Assembly: GCF_008802355.1 (NCBI RefSeq)
Contig: NZ_VZRA01000001.1
Span: 566,980-630,979, forward strand
Length of the DNA: 64,000 nt
From: Oryzomonas sagensis
GTDB taxonomy: Bacteria; Desulfobacterota; Desulfuromonadia; Geobacterales; Pseudopelobacteraceae
Reading direction: 5' to 3'
The notes beneath the pieces are model-generated. The model worked only from the letters and a program-made list of their open reading frames with translations, made no database searches and was not told the origin of the DNA. Each line of letters opens with the position of its first letter. Position 1 is the first letter of the stretch. Of the stretch, positions 24,707-33,450 are shown piece after piece. Made by a program: the position numbers and the translations under genes.

Positions 24707-25933
24707 TCAATGCGCCTTCATCCAGAAACGTCTCATCTCGAGCCACACCGGCACCATAGGACGCCAGCCCGACCATGCCCGCACGTTGACCATAAACAGC
24801 CCCACGGCCCCCAACCCCATGACCCCGGCGGCGTAGAACACGGCCGTCAGCCCCAGGGTGGTCTGTAACCCCGCACCCAAGAGCGGGCCCGAGACGAAGC
24901 CCAGGTTCAGCACCGCGTTGCAGGTCCCCACCGTTACCCCCATGCCGTGGCGGCTCCCCTCCTCCACCAACAGCGCCGTGCTGGCAGGCTGGGACAGGAC
25001 GCTGAACAGGCCGATACCCAAACCCAGGGCCATGATCTGGGAGAACCCCGCCGCCACCGGGATCAGGAAGTAGAGGAACGAAACGACGGTGCCCCCGGCA
25101 ACCACCAGGGAGGTGCGCGGCGCCCGGTCCGAGAGCATCCCCATGGGGCGCAGCAGCAGGGTCATCACCAGGGTGGAGGAAGCCATGACCATGCCGGCAC
25201 GGGTGCCGTTCAGCCCAAGCCGGGACGTGAGCATGATGGGGAGGAAGGCGCCCAGGAGCGAGATGCCGCAGGCCCGGCCGAAGATGAAGGCCAGAAGCCC
25301 CCGCAGGGAGTTGTGGCGGGTGACGTTCAGGAGGTCCCTGAGGCGTTCCGTTTCATACTGTTTCGCTTGCCCGGAAACATTCTTGTGGCCGGGGATGCAG
25401 ACTAATGCCACGGCCAGGGCCAGGAGGCACAGGAACGTGAGGGTAACGAAGATCCCCCGGAAGCCCCATTGGTCCTTGAGCATGCCCCCCACGATGGGGC
25501 CAGCGCTCAGGGCGCCGTAGAAGGAGATGTCGAAGGTCCCCATGACCGTGGCCCGTTTCTTGTCCGAGGCGCATTCGCTCACCAGGGAGACCACCACCGG
25601 GCGGAACATGGCGCAGCCGATCCCCTGGAGCAGACGCAGGAGGGTGATGAGGGGGAGGCTGGCGGTGAAGAGGTAGCAGACCGAGACGAAGAGGTAGAGG
25701 CCGATGCTGACGGCGGCGATCCTCCTGCGGCCGATGCGGTCGGCCCAGGCGCCCATGAAGGGGCTGAGGATGATCTTGGAGAGGGAGTAGAAGACGAGCG
25801 GCAGGCCCAGGAGCAGGCCCCTTGCCCCCAGGCTGAAGACGTAGAGGGAGAAGAAGGCGTCGGCGATGCCGAAGCCCAGGGTGATGGCGAAGTTGATCAG
25901 GAACAGCCCCCGGAACAGGGTGCGGGTTTCCAT
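24707..25933 (-). CDS. Major facilitator superfamily transporter
   Basis: The start has AAAGGAG five to six bases upstream, giving 408 residues; the extra 35 codons of the longer frame belong to the hemerythrin gene. Twelve hydrophobic segments are visible. Loop 2-3 carries the MFS motif GAWADRIGRRR and the half-repeat has GMLSDRAPR. The profile is that of the drug:H+ antiporter/sugar-efflux branch. It is ten bases after the hemerythrin-like gene. Its 3' end (24790-24824) contains a 35-base stretch found again in the chimeric ORF at 32.8 kb. Confidence 0.87.
   Translation of the reverse strand: METRTLFRGLFLINFAITLGFGIADAFFSLYVFSLGARGLLLGLPLVFYSLSKIILSPFMGAWADRIGRRRIAAVSIGLYLFVSVCYLFTASLPLITLLRLLQGIGCAMFRPVVVSLVSECASDKKRATVMGTFDISFYGALSAGPIVGGMLKDQWGFRGIFVTLTFLCLLALAVALVCIPGHKNVSGQAKQYETERLRDLLNVTRHNSLRGLLAFIFGRACGISLLGAFLPIMLTSRLGLNGTRAGMVMASSTLVMTLLLRPMGMLSDRAPRTSLVVAGGTVVSFLYFLIPVAAGFSQIMALGLGIGLFSVLSQPASTALLVEEGSRHGMGVTVGTCNAVLNLGFVSGPLLGAGLQTTLGLTAVFYAAGVMGLGAVGLFMVNVRAWSGWRPMVPVWLEMRRFWMKAH
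24790..24824 (+). repeat. 35-base direct repeat, copy 1 (inside MFS gene)
   Basis: Identical over 35 bases to 32835-32869 in the same orientation. On the minus strand it encodes VMGLGAVGLFM near the MFS C-terminus, its natural reading. The two copies bracket the 8-kb accessory block. Confidence 0.85.
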
Positions 25934-25943
25934 GGTTTCTCCT

Positions 25944-26372
25944 TTAGGCAGCCAGGTATGCCTCGAAGGCCCGGTCCTGGACATGGATATGCTCCAGCCA
26001 GAGCAGACGGATATCCGCCAACTCGCCGGGCAGCACATTCAGACCCGTACCGTAGCGGCGGGCCAACTCGGCGGTGTTGCCGCAGAGAAACTGGTGGTGC
26101 AGGCGATGCCGGGTGGTCTGGGGGAAGCCCACCAATTCCATGTAGCCGTTCTCCGAGCCGATGTGCTCCATCACGACCTCCTGGAGCCGGTCCAACGCCC
26201 GGGTGAGGTCGACGCCCGGTTTCTCCCGAACCAGCGCGATCATGGCGTCCAGCTGGCCGATGATGCTCCGGTAGCGGCTGTCGCAGGCGAGTCTTCTCTC
26301 GGTGGAGCCGTGCGGGACGACCGGCATGTCGTGCCCGATGGTGGTGCATTGTCCGTAGGTATGCAGTTCCAT
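25944..26372 (-). CDS. Hemerythrin-like protein with altered first iron ligand
   Basis: The 142-residue protein starts at the ATG following AAAGGA. It fits bacteriohemerythrin: H70xxxE74 (EHIGSENG), H89xxxH93 (RHRLHHQF) and H128xxxxD133 (LEHIHVQDRAF), with VGFPQTT matching the usual GYP turn. The first His of the D-x-x-H motif is replaced: C30-D31-S-R-Y34. Loss of that ligand could change or abolish O2 binding. It lies between the porin and the MFS gene in one orientation. Oxygen or iron sensing/storage is a family-level expectation. Confidence 0.8.
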   Translation of the reverse strand: MELHTYGQCTTIGHDMPVVPHGSTERRLACDSRYRSIIGQLDAMIALVREKPGVDLTRALDRLQEVVMEHIGSENGYMELVGFPQTTRHRLHHQFLCGNTAELARRYGTGLNVLPGELADIRLLWLEHIHVQDRAFEAYLAA

Positions 26373-26407
26373 ACTTCGTGTCCTTTGGTTGCAAGGGTGG
26401 AAAGAAG

Positions 26408-26440
26408 GCCCGTGGAGGAAGGAGGGAGAACTCCACGGGC
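26408..26440 (-). terminator. Hairpin after the porin gene (first)
   Basis: Perfect 10-base-pair stem GCCCGTGGAG/CTCCACGGGC with a 13-base loop. Together with the second hairpin it could end or attenuate porin transcription before the hemerythrin gene. No U-tract. Confidence 0.5.
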
Positions 26441-26450
26441 TTCCAAACCA

Positions 26451-26478
26451 TCCCCAAAGTCCGTCGGATCTTTGGGGA
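26451..26478 (-). terminator. Hairpin after the porin gene (second)
   Basis: Nine-base-pair stem TCCCCAAAG/CTTTGGGGA with a 10-base loop, 28 bases after the porin stop on the minus strand. Possible attenuator or RNA-stability stem. Confidence 0.5.
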
Positions 26479-26505
26479 CGGTCATATTGACCGGCTCGTC
26501 CCGGC

Positions 26506-27732
26506 TCAGAAGTAATAGTAGAGCGCCAGACGGTAGATGTTGGCTTTGCCCAGTTCACTGTTGGCCCCGGTCGGCTTGACATTGTACCGGGTGGAGGCGA
26601 ACTCGTACTCCGTAGCCACCCTGACCGCCGCATTCAGGTCATAGGCGAGGTTGGCGTAGATGAGCTGATTATATCTTTCCCCCGCGGCGCTGGCGGTTTT
26701 ACCCAGACTGTCGTAGTCCATGGACTGGCGTCGGCCATAACCGGCCGTTACCCCCATATCCTGCAACGGATAGAAGATCAACTGGCCATAGACACCGAAA
26801 CCACGGGCGGCGCTCATGTTCGGCAGGGTGCCGGTGGTCGAGGCTCCGGTTGCCTGCTGATCCCCCAAACCTGCGGCTATATAGGCTTGTGTCTCGAGGG
26901 ATAGGGTCATGGCCCGGTTCTTACCGTTTGCCGACTTGAGAAGCGGCACAAAGCCGTAAATGCCGTAGCCGTAAACATTGATCGCCTTATTGCCTGTCAC
27001 CTTCTGGGTGCCGGCTTCACCGAAAAGTGTAACCTGCAACGGCTGTAGCGCCTTGCCGCCGATGCCCGGGGCAACCCCCAACGCCTTGCTTTCGTAAATG
27101 AGGCGGCCAGCGGCGTTCACGGCAGGTCCATAACTATTAGGCGTTAATGTGCTGTATTCCTGTTGCGGATTTTGCAGCCCCAACATCAGGCTTAGCTTGT
27201 TATCCTGGTTCTTGGCAAGGTCCTGAGTTACGCGAAGTTGGGCGACCCGCGGGCAGTTCGGCGTGCCGGTGAAACCATTGACTGAAAAATCCACCGTATT
27301 AGCCGCGGCAGGCCCAAAGATGTCCCAGGTCTGGCCGAACAGGATGTGGGTGGTGTCCCAGTCCAGGGTGCCGTAGGCGTGGCGGATGCGTAGCGTACCG
27401 GTTTCGTTGTTTACCGATGAGCCGCCGCCATAAAAATCCACCTCCACGAGCGACCCGGTCTTTGCGCCGAAGGCGTCGGGCCCTTTAGCCCTGAACCACA
27501 GTCTGGACTCACGGGCGGTAAAGGTCGATTCATCCTTTTGGGCGCTGGCCGTCCCGCCTGCCGGCATTTGCGGGATCAGCTTTGGGGAGTTCAATTTTAC
27601 CGAGTTATAGGCGTAATCGAGTTTGACGTAACCGCCGATGGAGAGGTCGAACTTGCTCTTGACCGGCTCGTCGGCCATAGCGGGAGAAGCCAGAAGAAGC
27701 GCCACGGCGCTCAGTCCCCAGAAAATCTTCAT
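26506..27732 (-). CDS. DcaP-like outer-membrane porin
   Basis: The ATG has AAAGGAG upstream. The 408-residue protein has a signal peptide ending ASPAMADE, then a barrel with ARESRLWFRAKGP, EVDFYGGG, LRIRHAYGTLDW and ILFGQTWDIFGP. It ends ALYYYF with the C-terminal Phe of outer-membrane porins. The pattern resembles DcaP-type porins, which admit dicarboxylic acids in Acinetobacter. It sits in the same run as the periplasmic flavoprotein and tetraheme cytochrome, so entry of their organic-acid substrate is a sensible hypothesis. Confidence 0.82.
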   Translation of the reverse strand: MKIFWGLSAVALLLASPAMADEPVKSKFDLSIGGYVKLDYAYNSVKLNSPKLIPQMPAGGTASAQKDESTFTARESRLWFRAKGPDAFGAKTGSLVEVDFYGGGSSVNNETGTLRIRHAYGTLDWDTTHILFGQTWDIFGPAAANTVDFSVNGFTGTPNCPRVAQLRVTQDLAKNQDNKLSLMLGLQNPQQEYSTLTPNSYGPAVNAAGRLIYESKALGVAPGIGGKALQPLQVTLFGEAGTQKVTGNKAINVYGYGIYGFVPLLKSANGKNRAMTLSLETQAYIAAGLGDQQATGASTTGTLPNMSAARGFGVYGQLIFYPLQDMGVTAGYGRRQSMDYDSLGKTASAAGERYNQLIYANLAYDLNAAVRVATEYEFASTRYNVKPTGANSELGKANIYRLALYYYF

Positions 27733-27829
27733 ATGTTTTTCTCCTTTGAATAGGTATGTAACGCTTGGGAAAACAGACAACCTGCCACACGATGCCACGG
27801 AGGGCCGCCGAATGCGGTGAACGGCCGCA

Positions 27830-28105
27830 CTACTGGTGAGGGACCTGTTCCGCCCCCTGTTTTAGTGACCGACTGAGACCGTCCGCAACCTCCCCCGCCA
27901 CCTTTTTCAACAGCTCACCGCCCCGGGCTGGCCCATCCTCCACATACCTTTTTGGCACCCATATGGTGGCCGGGGCGTTGGCGTACCTGGTATAATCCGG
28001 GTTGCTGATCTCCACGTAATCGCCGGAGGCCACGTCAGTCTGCCGGTTGACGGCGCAGGCTGCCAAGAAGACACTAAGACACACTACGGGCACGAAGAAA
28101 CGCAT
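27830..28105 (-). CDS. Small lipoprotein, unknown
   Basis: A 91-residue product with a clear lipobox: MRFFVPVVCLSVFLAAC. The mature part has DYVEISNPDYTRYANAPATIWVPKRY and then an amphipathic helix (GELLKKVAGEVADGLSRSLKQG). No family recognised. It lies between the tetraheme cytochrome gene and the porin gene, and may assist either at the outer membrane. Confidence 0.75.
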   Translation of the reverse strand: MRFFVPVVCLSVFLAACAVNRQTDVASGDYVEISNPDYTRYANAPATIWVPKRYVEDGPARGGELLKKVAGEVADGLSRSLKQGAEQVPHQ

Positions 28106-28235
28106 CTGCCGTTACCTACCTTGTTTGTGGGGTGTTGGAACAAAAGTCACGGGGCGTGATGCAGGGGCGGTATCCCACCCCTGCCTGAAAGAAACCATCA
28201 CGCAGCGTGGTGCAAATTTCGACGATCGGCTTTGC

Positions 28236-28643
28236 CTAAGGCGTCTTCACATCGATTTTATGGCACCAGTTGCAATGCATCTTTTCTGCGGGTTTTTTAT
28301 GTACACTATGGCAAATGGTACAGCGCACCGGGCCCTGGTGTGAGTCATGAATAGACATTTTCCTGATACGTCCGCTTTCCCGGTACTCTTTTTCCACGCT
28401 TTCCCCATGGGCATCAAGCTTGCCGCGATACGTGCCGTCGCCGGAGTCGTGACAACGGAGACAGGCGCTCGACGGTACAAACGCCGAGGGGGCGGCTGTA
28501 CCGTGGCAATCCGCGCAGGTCAGGTTGTTTTCCTTATGCTTCAGCGTGGCTACGATCTCCTTTGCGGAAGCAGTTATCCAGGTCCCGGTGAGCAGGGCGG
28601 CCACTACAACCAATATCATCGATGCGGTAATAGTCTTTTTCAT
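28236..28643 (-). CDS. Periplasmic tetraheme cytochrome c (electron-donor subunit)
   Basis: The 135-residue precursor has a Sec signal peptide (ASMILVVVAALLTGTWITASAKE) and four CXXCH sites: CADCH, CLRCH, CTICH, CNWCH. Size and spacing resemble the N-terminal heme domain of flavocytochrome c fumarate reductases. The flavoprotein gene lies 12 bases upstream, so the pair forms a split flavocytochrome c. The separately encoded tetraheme (Mcc) and flavin (Mrd) partners of the methacrylate redox system of Geobacter sulfurreducens AM-1 have the same layout. Confidence 0.88.
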   Translation of the reverse strand: MKKTITASMILVVVAALLTGTWITASAKEIVATLKHKENNLTCADCHGTAAPSAFVPSSACLRCHDSGDGTYRGKLDAHGESVEKEYRESGRIRKMSIHDSHQGPVRCTICHSVHKKPAEKMHCNWCHKIDVKTP

Positions 28644-28655
28644 ATATATTCTCCG

Positions 28656-30215
28656 TTATTTAGATAGCTTGGTTTTCACGATATGTTCCGCAGCCAGTTT
28701 TCCGGAAACAAGGGCGAAGCCGCTCGCCGATCCCTCCAACAGGAGGTCGTAGCTACTGTCGTACAGGCCGCCCATATCCTGACCCGTTACGTAGAGGCCC
28801 GGTATCACCGCCCCATTCGTATTTATCGCCTGCATGTTGTCGTTGATTTTCACGCCGCCCAGAGTCAGGAAGAACGCCCGTATCCCCTTGAGCGCATAGT
28901 ACGGACCGGTGGAACTGAACTTGAAAAGGTGCTCCGGCTTGCGGCCGAAATCGGGGTCCTTTTTCAGGCCGGCATAACTATTGATCTTGCTCACGGTGGC
29001 CTTCAAAGCCTCCGGGTCAACCTTTATCTTGGCGGCCAACTCTTCCAGCGTGTCGGCTTTGAATGCGTAACCTTCCTTAATTCCTTTTTCCAAACCTTCA
29101 TTCAGCGCCGTCATCTTCTGCCCAACCTGGACTATCGCGTTGAATGGCGTATAAGGCCCCTCGCTCACCAAACGATTTTTCATATGCTCGTCGAAGATGT
29201 TGTACATCAAGCCGCCGTTAGCCGTCATTGCGTTATAGACATCGGTAAAAGCCGACCCGGCAGACTCATTGTAAAAACGCTGTCCCGACTTGTTGATCCA
29301 GAGAAAGGGCTGGGACAGGGCACATCTCATTTGTTTCAGGTGGTCGGCGCCATTAAACTGATAGATCGGAGGTTCGTTATCCAGATAGGGGCTGTTCCCG
29401 GCAAGTGTGCCCATGCCGTCCAGCTTGGCTCCAACCTGGACGGCCATATTGATGCCGTCTCCGGTACGGCCGTCGATGAGCGGTCCGCGATACATCACAC
29501 GCTCCAGCATTCCCTCCGCGTTGATATCGGCCACATACTTCTTCAACATCTCCTTGTTGCTTTCGAATCCGCCGGTCGCCAGAATGACTCCGCCTTTTGC
29601 GTTGACGACATAAGTCTTGCCGTCCACAGACTGTGCGACAACGCCGGTGACTTTCCCGCTATTGTCCGTCAGGAGGTTTTTTACCGTCGTTTCGGTGTAA
29701 AGCGTTCCACCCTTGGCGACAAAATTCTTATAAAGCTTCTTCACAACCGCCGCCGCGCCGCCGGTGTACAGGTGCCATGTGCCGAGGCTCTTTTCCGGCG
29801 GATACATGGTTTTGATCCCTCTGAAAGTGATGCCCTGATCTTCGATCCAGTCGATGGTCCGCCCCGAGTTGGCAATCAGGGTATGCAAGACAGAGGCGTT
29901 TACACGCCAATGGTGAAACTCCACACCTTTAGCAAACACCTCATCCACGGTCTTGGTATAGCCCAGCTTTTTTTGCAGGCGGGTGCCCACCCCAAGCGAA
30001 CCTTCCGGGTAGTTCCCCGCACCGCCTACCCCTGGGAGCTTTTCAAAGATCACTACCTTCGCACCCTTTTCTACTGCCGTCAGCCCGGCAGACAGGCCCG
30101 AAAGGCCGCCACCGACGACAACGATATCCGTGTCCAGAACCTCAGTTGCCTTGGCGTTTGACGCAAATAGTATTGCTATCGCCGACAGCACAAACCACTT
30201 ACACGACCATCTCAT
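28656..30215 (-). CDS. Periplasmic FAD-dependent reductase of the flavocytochrome c family
   Basis: The 519-residue precursor has a Sec signal peptide ending NAKATE. The FAD fold follows (DTDIVVVGGGLSGLSAGLTAVEKGAKVVIFEK, then GGVILATGGFESN and NTNGAVIPGLYVTGQDMGG). It matches fumarate reductase/urocanate reductase flavoproteins overall. The usual HHTMGG and NRLGG substrate motifs of fumarate reductase are here FFLTLGG and an unrelated YDSSYDLLLEGSASGF, so fumarate is unlikely. A 2-enoate such as methacrylate or acrylate is a candidate, by analogy with Mrd. Electrons should come from the adjacent tetraheme cytochrome. The gene diverges from a Crp/Fnr regulator. Confidence 0.87.
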   Translation of the reverse strand: MRWSCKWFVLSAIAILFASNAKATEVLDTDIVVVGGGLSGLSAGLTAVEKGAKVVIFEKLPGVGGAGNYPEGSLGVGTRLQKKLGYTKTVDEVFAKGVEFHHWRVNASVLHTLIANSGRTIDWIEDQGITFRGIKTMYPPEKSLGTWHLYTGGAAAVVKKLYKNFVAKGGTLYTETTVKNLLTDNSGKVTGVVAQSVDGKTYVVNAKGGVILATGGFESNKEMLKKYVADINAEGMLERVMYRGPLIDGRTGDGINMAVQVGAKLDGMGTLAGNSPYLDNEPPIYQFNGADHLKQMRCALSQPFLWINKSGQRFYNESAGSAFTDVYNAMTANGGLMYNIFDEHMKNRLVSEGPYTPFNAIVQVGQKMTALNEGLEKGIKEGYAFKADTLEELAAKIKVDPEALKATVSKINSYAGLKKDPDFGRKPEHLFKFSSTGPYYALKGIRAFFLTLGGVKINDNMQAINTNGAVIPGLYVTGQDMGGLYDSSYDLLLEGSASGFALVSGKLAAEHIVKTKLSK

Positions 30216-30305
30216 AAGCTACCCCCATTCCATATTAGTAGTAACTGCGTATATTATTATCTTTAAATTTTGTAATTAACATTGTCATTGTTTATTTTTC
30301 ATTTA

Positions 30306-30437
30306 ATATATCTTGTGATACATGCTTACATAAATAAATTAGGACTATATATCCTGTGATATATGTAATTACTATTTTAATTATTTTATTACTAGTAATA
30401 TAGTGTATATAACATGCGTATATATCGCGTGATATAT
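30306..30437. promoter_or_regulatory. Three dyad repeats in the divergent promoter region
   Basis: Three 18-base dyads of form ATATATC-N4-GATAYAT occur at 30306-30323, 30347-30364 and 30420-30437; the four-base centres are TTGT, CTGT and GCGT. Starts are 41 and 73 bases apart, near four and seven helical turns. The 335-base gap between the flavoprotein and regulator genes is very AT-rich and otherwise shows only the promoter below. They are probably operators of the divergently encoded Crp/Fnr protein. Confidence 0.7.
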
Positions 30438-30449
30438 ACGAGACTGTAT

Positions 30450-30478
30450 TTGACATACTTATCTCCGTGTTATATTAT
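30450..30478 (+). promoter_or_regulatory. Promoter of the Crp/Fnr regulator gene
   Basis: TTGACA, 17 bases, TATTAT. It begins 12 bases after the third dyad, so a protein bound there could contact or block polymerase. Confidence 0.7.
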
Positions 30479-30550
30479 AATTTACACATGATTTAGAGGG
30501 ACAAGCGTTCGCGACATGCCACAACAGGAGGCAGTTTTTAGGGAGAGAGC

Positions 30551-31252
30551 ATGAGAATCAGGCATACAGCATTCCCGTGGATACGCTCCAAGGCGGACCG
30601 CGAGATCCAGCAGATTTTTTTGGATCAGGGCAAACCAAGACGTTTCAGCAAGGGCGCCTGCATCATCCCCGCCGGTGAATTCTATCCTCATATCGCCATC
30701 GTCATGAGCGGCATGTTGAGCAAATCATTCGAGGTGCGGGAAAGTTCCAAGGATCAGGCCATGAGCATCATCCTGCCTGGGGCTACACTGGGGGACTCGT
30801 TCTTCATGTCGTGCAGAGCCTCCAACTTGGCGGTGCACGCCCTGCGCGAGTCTGCAATTGTCGAACTCAGTCACGAGTTCATAGAAAAGAAGATGGGCTC
30901 CGATCCGGCTTTCTTTAGAAAGATGATGAACCACCTTATGCTGGACATGGAATCGGACCTGGAAGGCTTGGCCACGCTCATCGCCCGCAGCCACGAGGAG
31001 TGTCTCAAGGTCCTGATGAAAATTCTTGTGGTCCGCGATATGGTCCAACCGGACGGAGAGTGGTATCAACTGCCGATATACTTAAGCCATAGTGAAATGA
31101 GCAGAATCATCTACACCACGCCGCTCACCGTGAACCGTTTTCTTCTTGCGTGGAAAAAGGAGGGGCTTTACTTCAGGAGGGGCAACCACCGATTTTTCAA
31201 CTATCGATTGTTTGAAAATATCTACGACTGGAAGCATGGTGAAGTGACATGA
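30551..31252 (+). CDS. Crp/Fnr-family transcriptional regulator
   Basis: The 233-residue protein starts after GGGAGAGAGC. The N-terminal cyclic-nucleotide-binding-like barrel (RFSKGACIIPAGEFYPHIAIVMSGMLSKSF, then ATLGDSFFMSC) lacks the clear cAMP-binding Arg-Ser-like motif and the Fnr Cys cluster. The C-terminal winged helix has LSHSEMSRIIYTTPLTVNRFLLAWKKEGLYF. It most likely senses a small molecule and controls the divergent flavoprotein operon, and perhaps the permease downstream, through the three dyads. Ligand unknown. Confidence 0.85.
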   Translation: MRIRHTAFPWIRSKADREIQQIFLDQGKPRRFSKGACIIPAGEFYPHIAIVMSGMLSKSFEVRESSKDQAMSIILPGATLGDSFFMSCRASNLAVHALRESAIVELSHEFIEKKMGSDPAFFRKMMNHLMLDMESDLEGLATLIARSHEECLKVLMKILVVRDMVQPDGEWYQLPIYLSHSEMSRIIYTTPLTVNRFLLAWKKEGLYFRRGNHRFFNYRLFENIYDWKHGEVT

Positions 31253-31409
31253 CGAACCTAAGCCGGCATCGGCTTTTACCACAGGCACACACCGGTTGCG
31301 CCCCATCCGCTTCATGTAACTACGACCGTGAAGCCGACATCGGGATTTCCAACGAGGCCGCAGGCCTTCCGTAGTCTACCCATCGCCCGAACAACAGGAA
31401 CGGTCACCC

Positions 31410-32741
31410 ATGTTACTCGCTTTTGCCGGCATTGCAGTTCTCATGCTGTTACTCATGATTACGCTGCTCAAGGTCAACCCGTTTATCACCCTTATAATCG
31501 TATCCACTTTTCTCGGTTTGGCGACCGGCATGCCTTTGAACAAGGTTGCCTGCTCCATTCAGACCGGAATGGGCTCGACGCTCGGCTTTATTGCCATTGT
31601 TTTAGGGCTTGGAACGATGCTGGGTAAAATGCTGGAGGAGTCCGGGGGGGCGGAAAGGATTGCGAATACCCTGATCAAGGTATTTGGCGAGAGCAACGTA
31701 CATTGGGCGATGGTATTTGTCGCATTTATCGTCGGCATCCCGGTATTCTTTCAGGTGGGGTTCGTTCTCCTTATCCCGATTGTCTTCACCATCGCCAAGG
31801 AGACCAAGCTGTCACTGTTGAAGGTCGGTCTTCCGCTGGTGGCCGGCCTGTCGGTTGTACACGGGCTGATTCCGCCGCACCCGGCCGTCATGGCAACAGT
31901 GGATATCTGCAAGGCAAATGTGGGCAAGACGATTTTATACGGGGTGGTGGTGGGGCTACCGACAGCAATTATCGGCGGGCCGCTGTTTGCAAATTTCATT
32001 TCAGGCAGAATGCCCCATTTGGGGGTGCCGAAACAATTTGCCAGCCAGGTGAGGACCAACCGGGCCGATTATGAAATGCCGGGATTCGGGGTCACCCTAT
32101 TCACTATACTGCTGCCGGTATTTCTGATGCTCGTGGGAACCTATGCAACTCTGCTGTTGGACAAAGCAGCGCCCTGGTATGCTTTCTGCTTATTTGTCGG
32201 CAACCCTTTCATAGCGCTCCTGCTGACCCTTTTGCTATCATTCTTCACCTTCGGCCTCAACCGCAACTTTACACTGAAACGGATCGGGAAGTTCTGCGAC
32301 CAAGCCATGCCGCCCATGGCCGGCATACTGCTGGTTATCGGCGGCGGCGGCGCCTTCAACAGGGTGATGCTGGACAGCGGCGTCAACGCCGAGATTGCCA
32401 AGACGGCCTCGGCACTGCACCTGAGCCCCATTGTGCTGGCCTGGAGCGTTGCGGCGATCATCCGGGTCGCCACCGGGTCGCCCACCGTATCCATGATGGC
32501 GGCCGCCGGTATTGTGGCGCCCATGCTCTCGAATCACCCTGCTGTTGCGCCGGAAACGATCGTTTTGGCGCTCGGGTCCGGCGCATTAATACTTTCACAT
32601 GTCAATTGTGCAGGTTTTTGGATCGTCAAAGAATACTTCGGCATGTCCGTGACGGAGACATTGAAAACATGGACTGTTTTGGAAACAATTCTTGGCGTTT
32701 GCGGGTTGCTGTTCACCTTGCTTCTTGCCAATGTCGTATAG
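31410..32741 (+). CDS. GntP-family permease (organic acid uptake)
   Basis: The 443-residue protein is polytopic with 12 or more hydrophobic segments and family landmarks: GMGSTLGFIAIVLGLGTMLGKMLEESGGAERIA, GIPVFFQVGFVLLIPIVF, PLVAGLSVVHGLIPPHPAV and HVNCAGFWIVKEYF. GntP proteins import gluconate or similar hydroxy-acids with protons. The 157-base gap before it has only a weak AGCCG/CGGCT stem with TTTT just after the regulator stop. Its place beside the enoate-type reductase and DcaP-like porin suggests it imports a related acid. Confidence 0.9.
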   Translation: MLLAFAGIAVLMLLLMITLLKVNPFITLIIVSTFLGLATGMPLNKVACSIQTGMGSTLGFIAIVLGLGTMLGKMLEESGGAERIANTLIKVFGESNVHWAMVFVAFIVGIPVFFQVGFVLLIPIVFTIAKETKLSLLKVGLPLVAGLSVVHGLIPPHPAVMATVDICKANVGKTILYGVVVGLPTAIIGGPLFANFISGRMPHLGVPKQFASQVRTNRADYEMPGFGVTLFTILLPVFLMLVGTYATLLLDKAAPWYAFCLFVGNPFIALLLTLLLSFFTFGLNRNFTLKRIGKFCDQAMPPMAGILLVIGGGGAFNRVMLDSGVNAEIAKTASALHLSPIVLAWSVAAIIRVATGSPTVSMMAAAGIVAPMLSNHPAVAPETIVLALGSGALILSHVNCAGFWIVKEYFGMSVTETLKTWTVLETILGVCGLLFTLLLANVV

Positions 32742-32802: not shown

Positions 32803-33126
32803 TTAGTGCATGCCCTCCCTTGCCGAAACCTGTGCCATAAACAGCCCCACGGCCCCCAACCCCATGACCTCGGCCACAGCTTTCGTGAGTTCCACGTTAT
32901 AGCCTGCCGGCTTGCCGTCCTTGTCGATGAATTCGTACGGGGGCAGGTCCCACCCGCCGCCGACGATAATGACCGAGGCCTTCCGTTTACCGACATCGGC
33001 ACCGGCGGAAAAGGGAGCACAGATGGCAAGGATCACCCCCGCAACGGCAAAGAGCGCCCACAACCGGATCAGGGCCGGCATAGGGCGGCTGCGGCGTTCA
33101 TGATGTCCTTCGGAATGTCGCATCAT
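32803..33126 (-). pseudogene. Chimeric broken ORF: solute-binding protein 5' part joined to an MFS 3' fragment
   Basis: The first part is a signal peptide (LIRLWALFAVAGVILAICAPFSAGA) and the opening of a family-3 solute-binding protein: GGGWDLPPYEFIDKDGKPAGYNVELTKAVAEVMG. At VMG it switches to GAVGLFMAQVSAREGMH and stops. The switch point is the 35-base stretch shared with the MFS gene, where VMGLGAVGLFM is natural. After it the sequence diverges from this MFS copy but stays loosely similar, as if from a paralogue. The binding-protein domain is cut after about a fifth of its length. No good ribosome site was found for any start, so it is probably not functional. Confidence 0.7.
32835..32869 (+). 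repeat. 35-base direct repeat, copy 2 (in chimeric ORF)
   Basis: Same orientation and sequence as 24790-24824. It marks the junction of the binding-protein and MFS parts of the chimera. Confidence 0.85.
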
Positions 33127-33327
33127 AGAGGGTTTTCTCAACGAGAGATTTGGACTGCGCCCGACAGGTAACGACATAGTCCGGCAATCAACAACTTCTA
33201 ATTATTTTGGAATAATCGTCTCTAAAAGGCAAGCGCTCTCATTGCATCGAGTAATGGGCAGTTGATATATGGCGTGGACAGCTTTGAGGAGCGGGATGAT
33301 CCGTCTCGGCGGCAGGGAAAACGGCCT

Positions 33328-33374: not shown

Positions 33375-33450
33375 TGGTGGAGCTGAACGGGATCGAACCG
33401 TCGACCTATGCGTTGCGAACGCATCGCTCTCCCAACTGAGCTACAGCCCC
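33375..33450 (-). tRNA. tRNA-Ala, anticodon CGC
   Basis: Minus-strand cloverleaf of 76 bases with encoded CCA. The acceptor GGGGCTG pairs with CAGCTCC (one G-U), D-stem GCTC/GAGC, anticodon stem ATGCG/CGCAT around loop TTCGCAA, T-arm GACGG-TTCGATC-CCGTT. Its 3' end faces the accessory block, the usual side for island integration, but I found no second copy of its 3' end inside the window. Confidence 0.95.

Follow-up and report, generated by a model that had tools for sequence, protein, structure and literature searches.

A putatively self-regulated periplasmic module of Oryzomonas sagensis pairing a VprA-like reductase with a tetraheme cytochrome: neutral conjugated alkenes as candidate electron acceptors

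What is the electron acceptor of a periplasmic flavin reductase that lacks the arginines of fumarate-reductase-type enzymes? The question is raised by a gene set of Oryzomonas sagensis, located in a 64,000-nucleotide stretch of contig NZ_VZRA01000001.1 (positions 566,980 to 630,979; hereafter the window). This set encodes a flavin adenine dinucleotide (FAD)-dependent reductase, a separate tetraheme c-type cytochrome and a divergently transcribed Crp/Fnr-family regulator, and it probably allows an unsaturated compound from outside the cell to serve as electron acceptor in the periplasm. An initial annotation of the locus described it as a candidate organic-acid (enoate) respiration module, a label that is probably wrong. 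We lean, with modest confidence, towards a self-regulated and probably horizontally moved respiratory module in which the tetraheme cytochrome and the VprA-like reductase would carry out the periplasmic reduction of a neutral conjugated alkene.

The reductase matches PF00890 (E = 1.5e-43) and begins with a Sec-type N-terminus, MRWSCKWFVLSAIAILFASNAKA, that has no twin arginine, in agreement with the Sec export predicted earlier; its sequence holds no CXXCH motif. Its best curated model is that of the vinylphenol reductase VprA (NF053717, 330 bits), while the score against flavocytochrome c (TIGR01813) stays below the curated cut-off (189.5 against 285 bits). UrdA and flavocytochrome c3 rank first both by sequence and by structure, and an AlphaFold2 model (predicted local distance difference test, pLDDT, 81.6) reaches a VIA Z of 35.5 to UrdA. 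Straight homology to a characterised PDB enzyme was considered and rejected, since the 26-30% identity to these two leaders reflects a common fold only.

In UrdA, Arg411 is the proton donor, Arg560 and His520 bind the carboxylate, and Asp388 and Arg390 also serve catalysis or binding; changing Arg411, Arg560 or Asp388 abolishes activity (PMC7921117). None of these five residues has an equivalent at the aligned positions of the window reductase. The corresponding R353, R501 and H461 are kept in Mrd of Geobacter sulfurreducens AM-1 (PMC4427408), and the matching segments of the reductase, compared through UrdA and FccA, contain neither arginine nor histidine. The host's own four-heme flavocytochrome c (L003), used as a positive control, keeps all three arginines, and a true VprA encoded on a Lactiplantibacillus plantarum plasmid (L052, 784 bits) likewise lacks them. 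Because the catalytic arginine and the carboxylate-docking arginine and histidine are absent, the acceptor is most likely not a simple enoate, contrary to what the initial annotation had proposed, and the best curated family, VprA, is a non-enoate one; since the score stays below that model's cut-off, this comes near to, without quite reaching, the outcome that the annotation had named as refuting its proposal. In place of the arginines and the histidine, the active site would be VprA-like, with Y489 and the pair H102-W103; across the wider VprA-like set, Y489 occurs in 35 of 38 sequences, H102 in 30 and W103 in 28. In a phylogenetic tree, UrdA, FccA and the host flavocytochrome c form one side of a branch with 100/100 support, and the window reductase falls, with 100/99 support, into a group with its counterparts from Geomonas, Xanthobacteraceae and a second genome of the genus (G003). 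Long branches make the exact placement of VprA unsure.

The tetraheme cytochrome, also foreseen by the initial annotation, is encoded on the same strand as the reductase, 12 bp away. Its four CXXCH motifs and an extra histidine are conserved in ten homologues, and a profile comparison relates it to the flavocytochrome c3 heme domain (1qo8, E = 1.5e-11). It is the likely electron donor to the reductase. The electron path, the direction of the reaction, the class of substrate and the ligand of the regulator are what we infer beyond the genes themselves. Electrons from menaquinol would pass through an inner-membrane quinol dehydrogenase, for which the two NapC/NrfH-type cytochromes encoded elsewhere in the genome are candidates, to the tetraheme cytochrome, and this protein would reduce the FAD of the separately encoded reductase, by which the C=C bond of an acceptor taken from outside would be hydrogenated in the periplasm. 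Most likely this acceptor is a neutral conjugated alkene, for example an enone or an aromatic of the vinyl- or propenyl-phenol type. The porin-like protein would admit it, the major facilitator superfamily (MFS) protein would probably handle the product or confer tolerance, and the Crp-type protein would sense a small molecule and control the divergent unit through palindromes. A phenolic acid decarboxylase that could act as a local source of vinylphenol was sought in the genome and not found. The genome also gave no match to dsrA above cut-off, and a sulfate-reducing host was rejected.

The core genes have been kept together. On the minus strand, the reductase is followed by the cytochrome, a small lipoprotein, a porin-like protein, a hemerythrin-like protein and an MFS transporter; on the other side, crp diverges from the reductase gene and a GntP-family permease starts 157 bp after it (Table 1). 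A block spanning 26405-32731 is collinear with G003 at 82.5% nucleotide identity, with different neighbours there, which agrees well with the range of 26506-32741 first assigned to the module; the MFS gene, present as announced, lies just outside that range and forms a second conserved block, and the hemerythrin-like gene had been missing from the earlier list. Ratios of nonsynonymous to synonymous substitution rates (dN/dS) between the window and G003 are 0.03 for the reductase, 0.06 for the cytochrome, 0.07 for the porin, 0.04 for Crp, 0.14 for GntP and 0.21 for the lipoprotein. Because the values for reductase, cytochrome, porin and regulator fall between 0.03 and 0.07, these are selected genes and not chance reading frames. 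In Geomonas oryzae the same order is found for crp (67% identity), reductase (82%), cytochrome (63%), porin (73%), hemerythrin-like (39%) and MFS (55%) genes, and that locus has neither GntP nor the lipoprotein gene. In the Xanthobacteraceae bacterium Astr-EGSB, crp stands with the reductase and cytochrome genes. Conservation of GntP (77% identical in G003) and of the lipoprotein (71%, kept in G003 alone) is confined to the genus, and GntP does not stand beside the module in Geomonas or Xanthobacteraceae.

The accessory proteins are mostly those named beforehand. The lipoprotein is there, and searches of Pfam and NCBIfam gave no match to it; the permease passes the curated cut-offs of both GntP models. 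For the porin, the gene stands and the DcaP likeness is weak: the PF19577 score of 18.1 bits is below the curated cut-off of 27, and a profile search of the PDB gave no match. The hemerythrin-like and MFS proteins are recurrent partners, found in Geomonas and in paralogous modules, and the MFS protein scores against drug-efflux models in profile searches.

Table 1. Positions of the module's genes, regulatory sites and flanking repeats in the window.
Feature	Position	Strand	Details
MFS transporter	24707..25933	-	PF07690, E = 1e-44
63-nt direct repeat, left copy (MFS 3' end)	24767..24829	.	second copy at 32812..32874
Hemerythrin-like protein	25944..26327	-	TIGR02481, E = 2e-10
Porin-like outer-membrane protein, weakly DcaP-like	26506..27732	-	DcaP 18.1 bits; kept in G003 and Geomonas
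Small lipoprotein	27830..28105	-	91 amino acids (aa), lipobox-like LAAC
Separate periplasmic tetraheme c-type cytochrome	28236..28643	-	135 aa; Cytochrom_c3_2, E = 8e-12
Sec-exported FAD-dependent reductase, VprA-like, lacking fumarate-reductase-type arginines	28656..30215	-	519 aa; PF00890 and NF053717 matches
Operator-like palindrome, copy 1	30307..30322	+	TATATCTTGTGATACA, one mismatch to TATATCNNGTGATATA
Operator-like palindrome, copy 2	30348..30363	+	TATATCCTGTGATATA
Operator-like palindrome, copy 3, core of 24-nt inverted repeat	30421..30436	+	CGTATATATCGCGTGATATATACG
Sigma-70-like promoter before crp	30450..30478	+	TTGACA-17-TATTAT, 11/12
Crp/Fnr-family regulator	30551..31252	+	PF00027 and PF13545
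GntP-family permease, downstream of crp	31410..32741	+	PF02447, E = 2e-163, 544 bits; TIGR00791, 513.8 bits
63-nt direct repeat, right copy, fused into solute-binding-protein reading frame	32812..32874	.	likely insertion or recombination scar

The divergent Crp/Fnr regulator was correctly recognised from the start, and its intergenic region explains how the module could be self-regulated. The gap between crp and the reductase gene holds three palindromes fitting TATATCNNGTGATATA, for which the chance expectation in the window is 0.03 matches, and no further site with at most one mismatch occurs anywhere in the genome. A near-consensus crp promoter lies just downstream of the third palindrome. 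Such sites are also present in the corresponding gap of G003 and of Geomonas, with one additional place elsewhere in each genome, and the GntP gene has no palindrome of its own. Since the candidate sites are confined to the crp-reductase gap, the regulon appears local and served by a dedicated regulator: judging by these operator-like palindromes, the Crp-type protein would be the dedicated local regulator of the divergent unit. The initial annotation is supported in its split flavin/tetraheme pair with a divergent regulator, and this unit proves to be conserved between genomes. Oxygen control of the FNR type was rejected, as an alignment with four relatives shows no cysteine cluster and the first 35 residues of the regulator contain no cysteine; PDB matches include CprK and NtcA, none of which stands out. 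Sigma-54 control of the window module was likewise dismissed, no credible site having been found.

The module has probably moved horizontally. Among 277 genomes of the class, a reductase match at E <= 1e-150 is found in three: this genome, G003 and Geomonas. The GC content of the core genes (0.52-0.60) is lower than that of the window (0.62), and the 8 kb block is bounded on both sides by a 63-nt direct repeat that corresponds to the MFS 3' end. The patchy distribution, the low GC and the repeat suggest that the block moved as a unit, and the right copy of the repeat is likely an insertion or recombination scar. It ends a truncated family-3 solute-binding-protein open reading frame (32803-33177, minus strand), which adjoins a tRNA-Ala gene (33375-33450). 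Searches of plasmid and phage collections gave distant relatives alone, the plasmid search also returning the true VprA mentioned above.

Paralogous modules bear on the nature of the acceptor. The host carries a second one (L054), composed of a cytochrome, a reductase 39% identical to the first, an outer-membrane protein, a hemerythrin-like protein and an MFS transporter, with a divergent regulator that combines XylR_N, V4R and sigma-54 domains. XylR-type regulators also adjoin modules in the genomes G002, G003, G004 (three), G014 and G022. Of the 14 XylR_N genes in six related genomes, eight, the host's single one included, have a VprA-like reductase no more than 2 kb away, whereas random placement gives a mean of 0.085 and a maximum of 3 in 100,000 trials. 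Upstream of the seven XylR-type modules examined, two of them orthologous, stand sigma-54-like sites scoring 8 to 10 of 11; random 250-nt sequences attain a score of 8 in about 8% of cases. Proteins of the XylR/DmpR family are established sensors of aromatic compounds, and the XylR-type activators with sigma-54-like promoters therefore point to aromatic inducers of the paralogues. Some sister modules include Phenol_MetA_deg outer-membrane proteins, and HGD-D and BcrAD_BadFG genes are found close to one sister module. These observations support aromatic acceptors for the paralogous modules and, by analogy with them only, lend support to an aromatic acceptor for the window module.

Several further features of these modules were recorded. 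A riboflavin synthesis gene, ribBA, lies between the reductase and the hemerythrin/MFS parts of some related modules (L055, 13776-14978; L060, 4226-5428; L061, 11796-13076), as if supplying flavin. Cytochromes with seven CXXCH motifs and a c3-type domain are found beside MFS and outer-membrane genes (L056, 12388-13068; L062, 8612-9355). In G004, a further genome of the genus, the reductase has about 25 matches; at least seven are VprA-like over their full length, and several stand in complete modules (L056-L059). Beside two reductase modules of G004, an array (L058, 656-4204) translates as VSIHTSPDWAGA repeats and is probably a CRISPR (clustered regularly interspaced short palindromic repeats) locus.

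Among known systems, the closest in layout are Mrd/Mcc and Cgr1/Cgr2. Mrd/Mcc, from the same bacterial order, likewise joins a separate periplasmic FAD reductase and a multiheme cytochrome in one operon, with a GTP cyclohydrolase gene nearby (PMC4427408), as RibBA in some related modules. Yet Mrd has a Tat signal and the three active-site residues that are missing here, Mcc is longer than the window cytochrome (231 against 135 aa), and a Crp-type regulon sets the window module apart, so that the likeness first drawn to the AM-1 pair stands for the architecture and fails for the active site. The cardiac glycoside reductase Cgr1/Cgr2 of Eggerthella lenta (PMC5953540) also pairs a multiheme c3-type cytochrome with an exported FAD reductase from this superfamily, and Cgr2, whose substrate is neutral and conjugated, similarly lacks the fumarate-reductase residues; it is Tat-exported, carries [4Fe-4S] clusters and works with a membrane-anchored NrfH-like protein, whereas the window module has a Sec-type start and a small soluble-type cytochrome. 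VprA of L. plantarum shares with the window reductase the tyrosine motif and the loss of the carboxylate-binding and catalytic arginines, but has no export signal, no cytochrome and a LysR-type regulator. UrdA and FccA of Shewanella share the fold and FAD domain, and the FccA heme domain is related to the window cytochrome; both enzymes keep the arginine-type active site, and their heme or flavin mononucleotide (FMN) domains are fused to the reductase. In architecture the module thus resembles Mrd/Mcc and Cgr1/Cgr2, and by the active-site comparisons it is outside the Mrd or UrdA kind.

Some observations weigh against a neutral alkene and a respiratory role. The reductase comes close to a known non-enoate family without entering it, VprA being its best-scoring model at a score below the curated cut-off of 600 bits, with only about 29% identity to VprA, and the window regulator is Crp-type, not XylR. 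A sister clade from Syntrophorhabdus and deltaproteobacterial metagenome-assembled genomes (L034-L038; support 100/99), with orthologues about 62% identical and the same active-site motifs, has no signal peptide and no cytochrome or Crp gene nearby; the fold alone therefore does not dictate respiration. The same enzyme has seemingly been rewired between cytoplasm and periplasm in the two clades. Four arginines, R243, R250, R297 and R446, occur in every member of the window clade and hardly ever in the wider set; R446 falls in the segment that holds UrdA His520. GntP-type permeases transport small hydroxy acids, and in two genomes of the genus, where the locus occupies different positions on the chromosome, GntP adjoins crp. 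Because of these arginines and this neighbour, an acid bound by other residues is conceivable: the window clade would reduce an unsaturated carboxylate through newly evolved arginines, the porin and GntP moving the acid, a reading with which the Mrd/Mcc-like architecture also agrees. We consider it rather unlikely, since the family arginines and histidine are gone at the aligned positions, the module occurs in Geomonas and Xanthobacteraceae without GntP, and the DcaP match of the porin is below cut-off.

The reaction might also run in the oxidative direction, with the FAD enzyme desaturating its substrate and the cytochrome carrying electrons towards the respiratory chain. Ketosteroid dehydrogenase profiles also score on the reductase, and ketosteroid and cyclohexanone dehydrogenases are structurally close to its model (VIA Z 31.5-33), with a lower root-mean-square deviation than closed fumarate-reductase structures. 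Such a periplasmic dehydrogenase is improbable, as VprA and the flavocytochrome-type relatives that work with c-type cytochromes are reductases, and UrdA and flavocytochrome c3 lead the rankings. A still smaller chance is given to detoxification without energy conservation, in which a toxic plant aromatic or xenobiotic would be removed with spare periplasmic cytochrome electrons: the recurrent MFS and hemerythrin-like partners and the drug-efflux scores would suit it, whereas export and a tetraheme donor fit a respiratory route, and the distinction is a physiological one, beyond what sequence can tell. The reading we retain is the reduction of a neutral conjugated alkene through the tetraheme cytochrome.

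Altogether, the module is best filed as a variant of the respiratory flavin reductase systems, one whose catalytic subunit is VprA-like, whose tetraheme cytochrome is a protein of its own and whose Crp-type regulon is dedicated. This kind of system is already known, and large sets of respiratory flavin reductases have reportedly been described in gut bacteria; what may be new in Geobacterales is the association with aromatic sensors and the subset that lacks the arginines. As a tentative extension, some Geobacterales may hold an arsenal of periplasmic VprA-like reductase/tetraheme modules, the window module among them, each linked to a separate sensor of small molecules (of XylR type with sigma-54, or of a dedicated Crp type) and jointly serving an anaerobic respiration whose acceptors are neutral vinyl aromatics and enones, lignin being one possible source. 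Default annotation of respiratory flavin reductases tends to fumarate or enoate reductase; here the residues of the active site, the neighbouring sensors and the operator sites speak against this default and for neutral conjugated alkenes as respiratory acceptors in Geobacter relatives. If true, this would provide a small set of testable enzymes with their own sensors and would add an electron sink to carbon turnover in anoxic soils.

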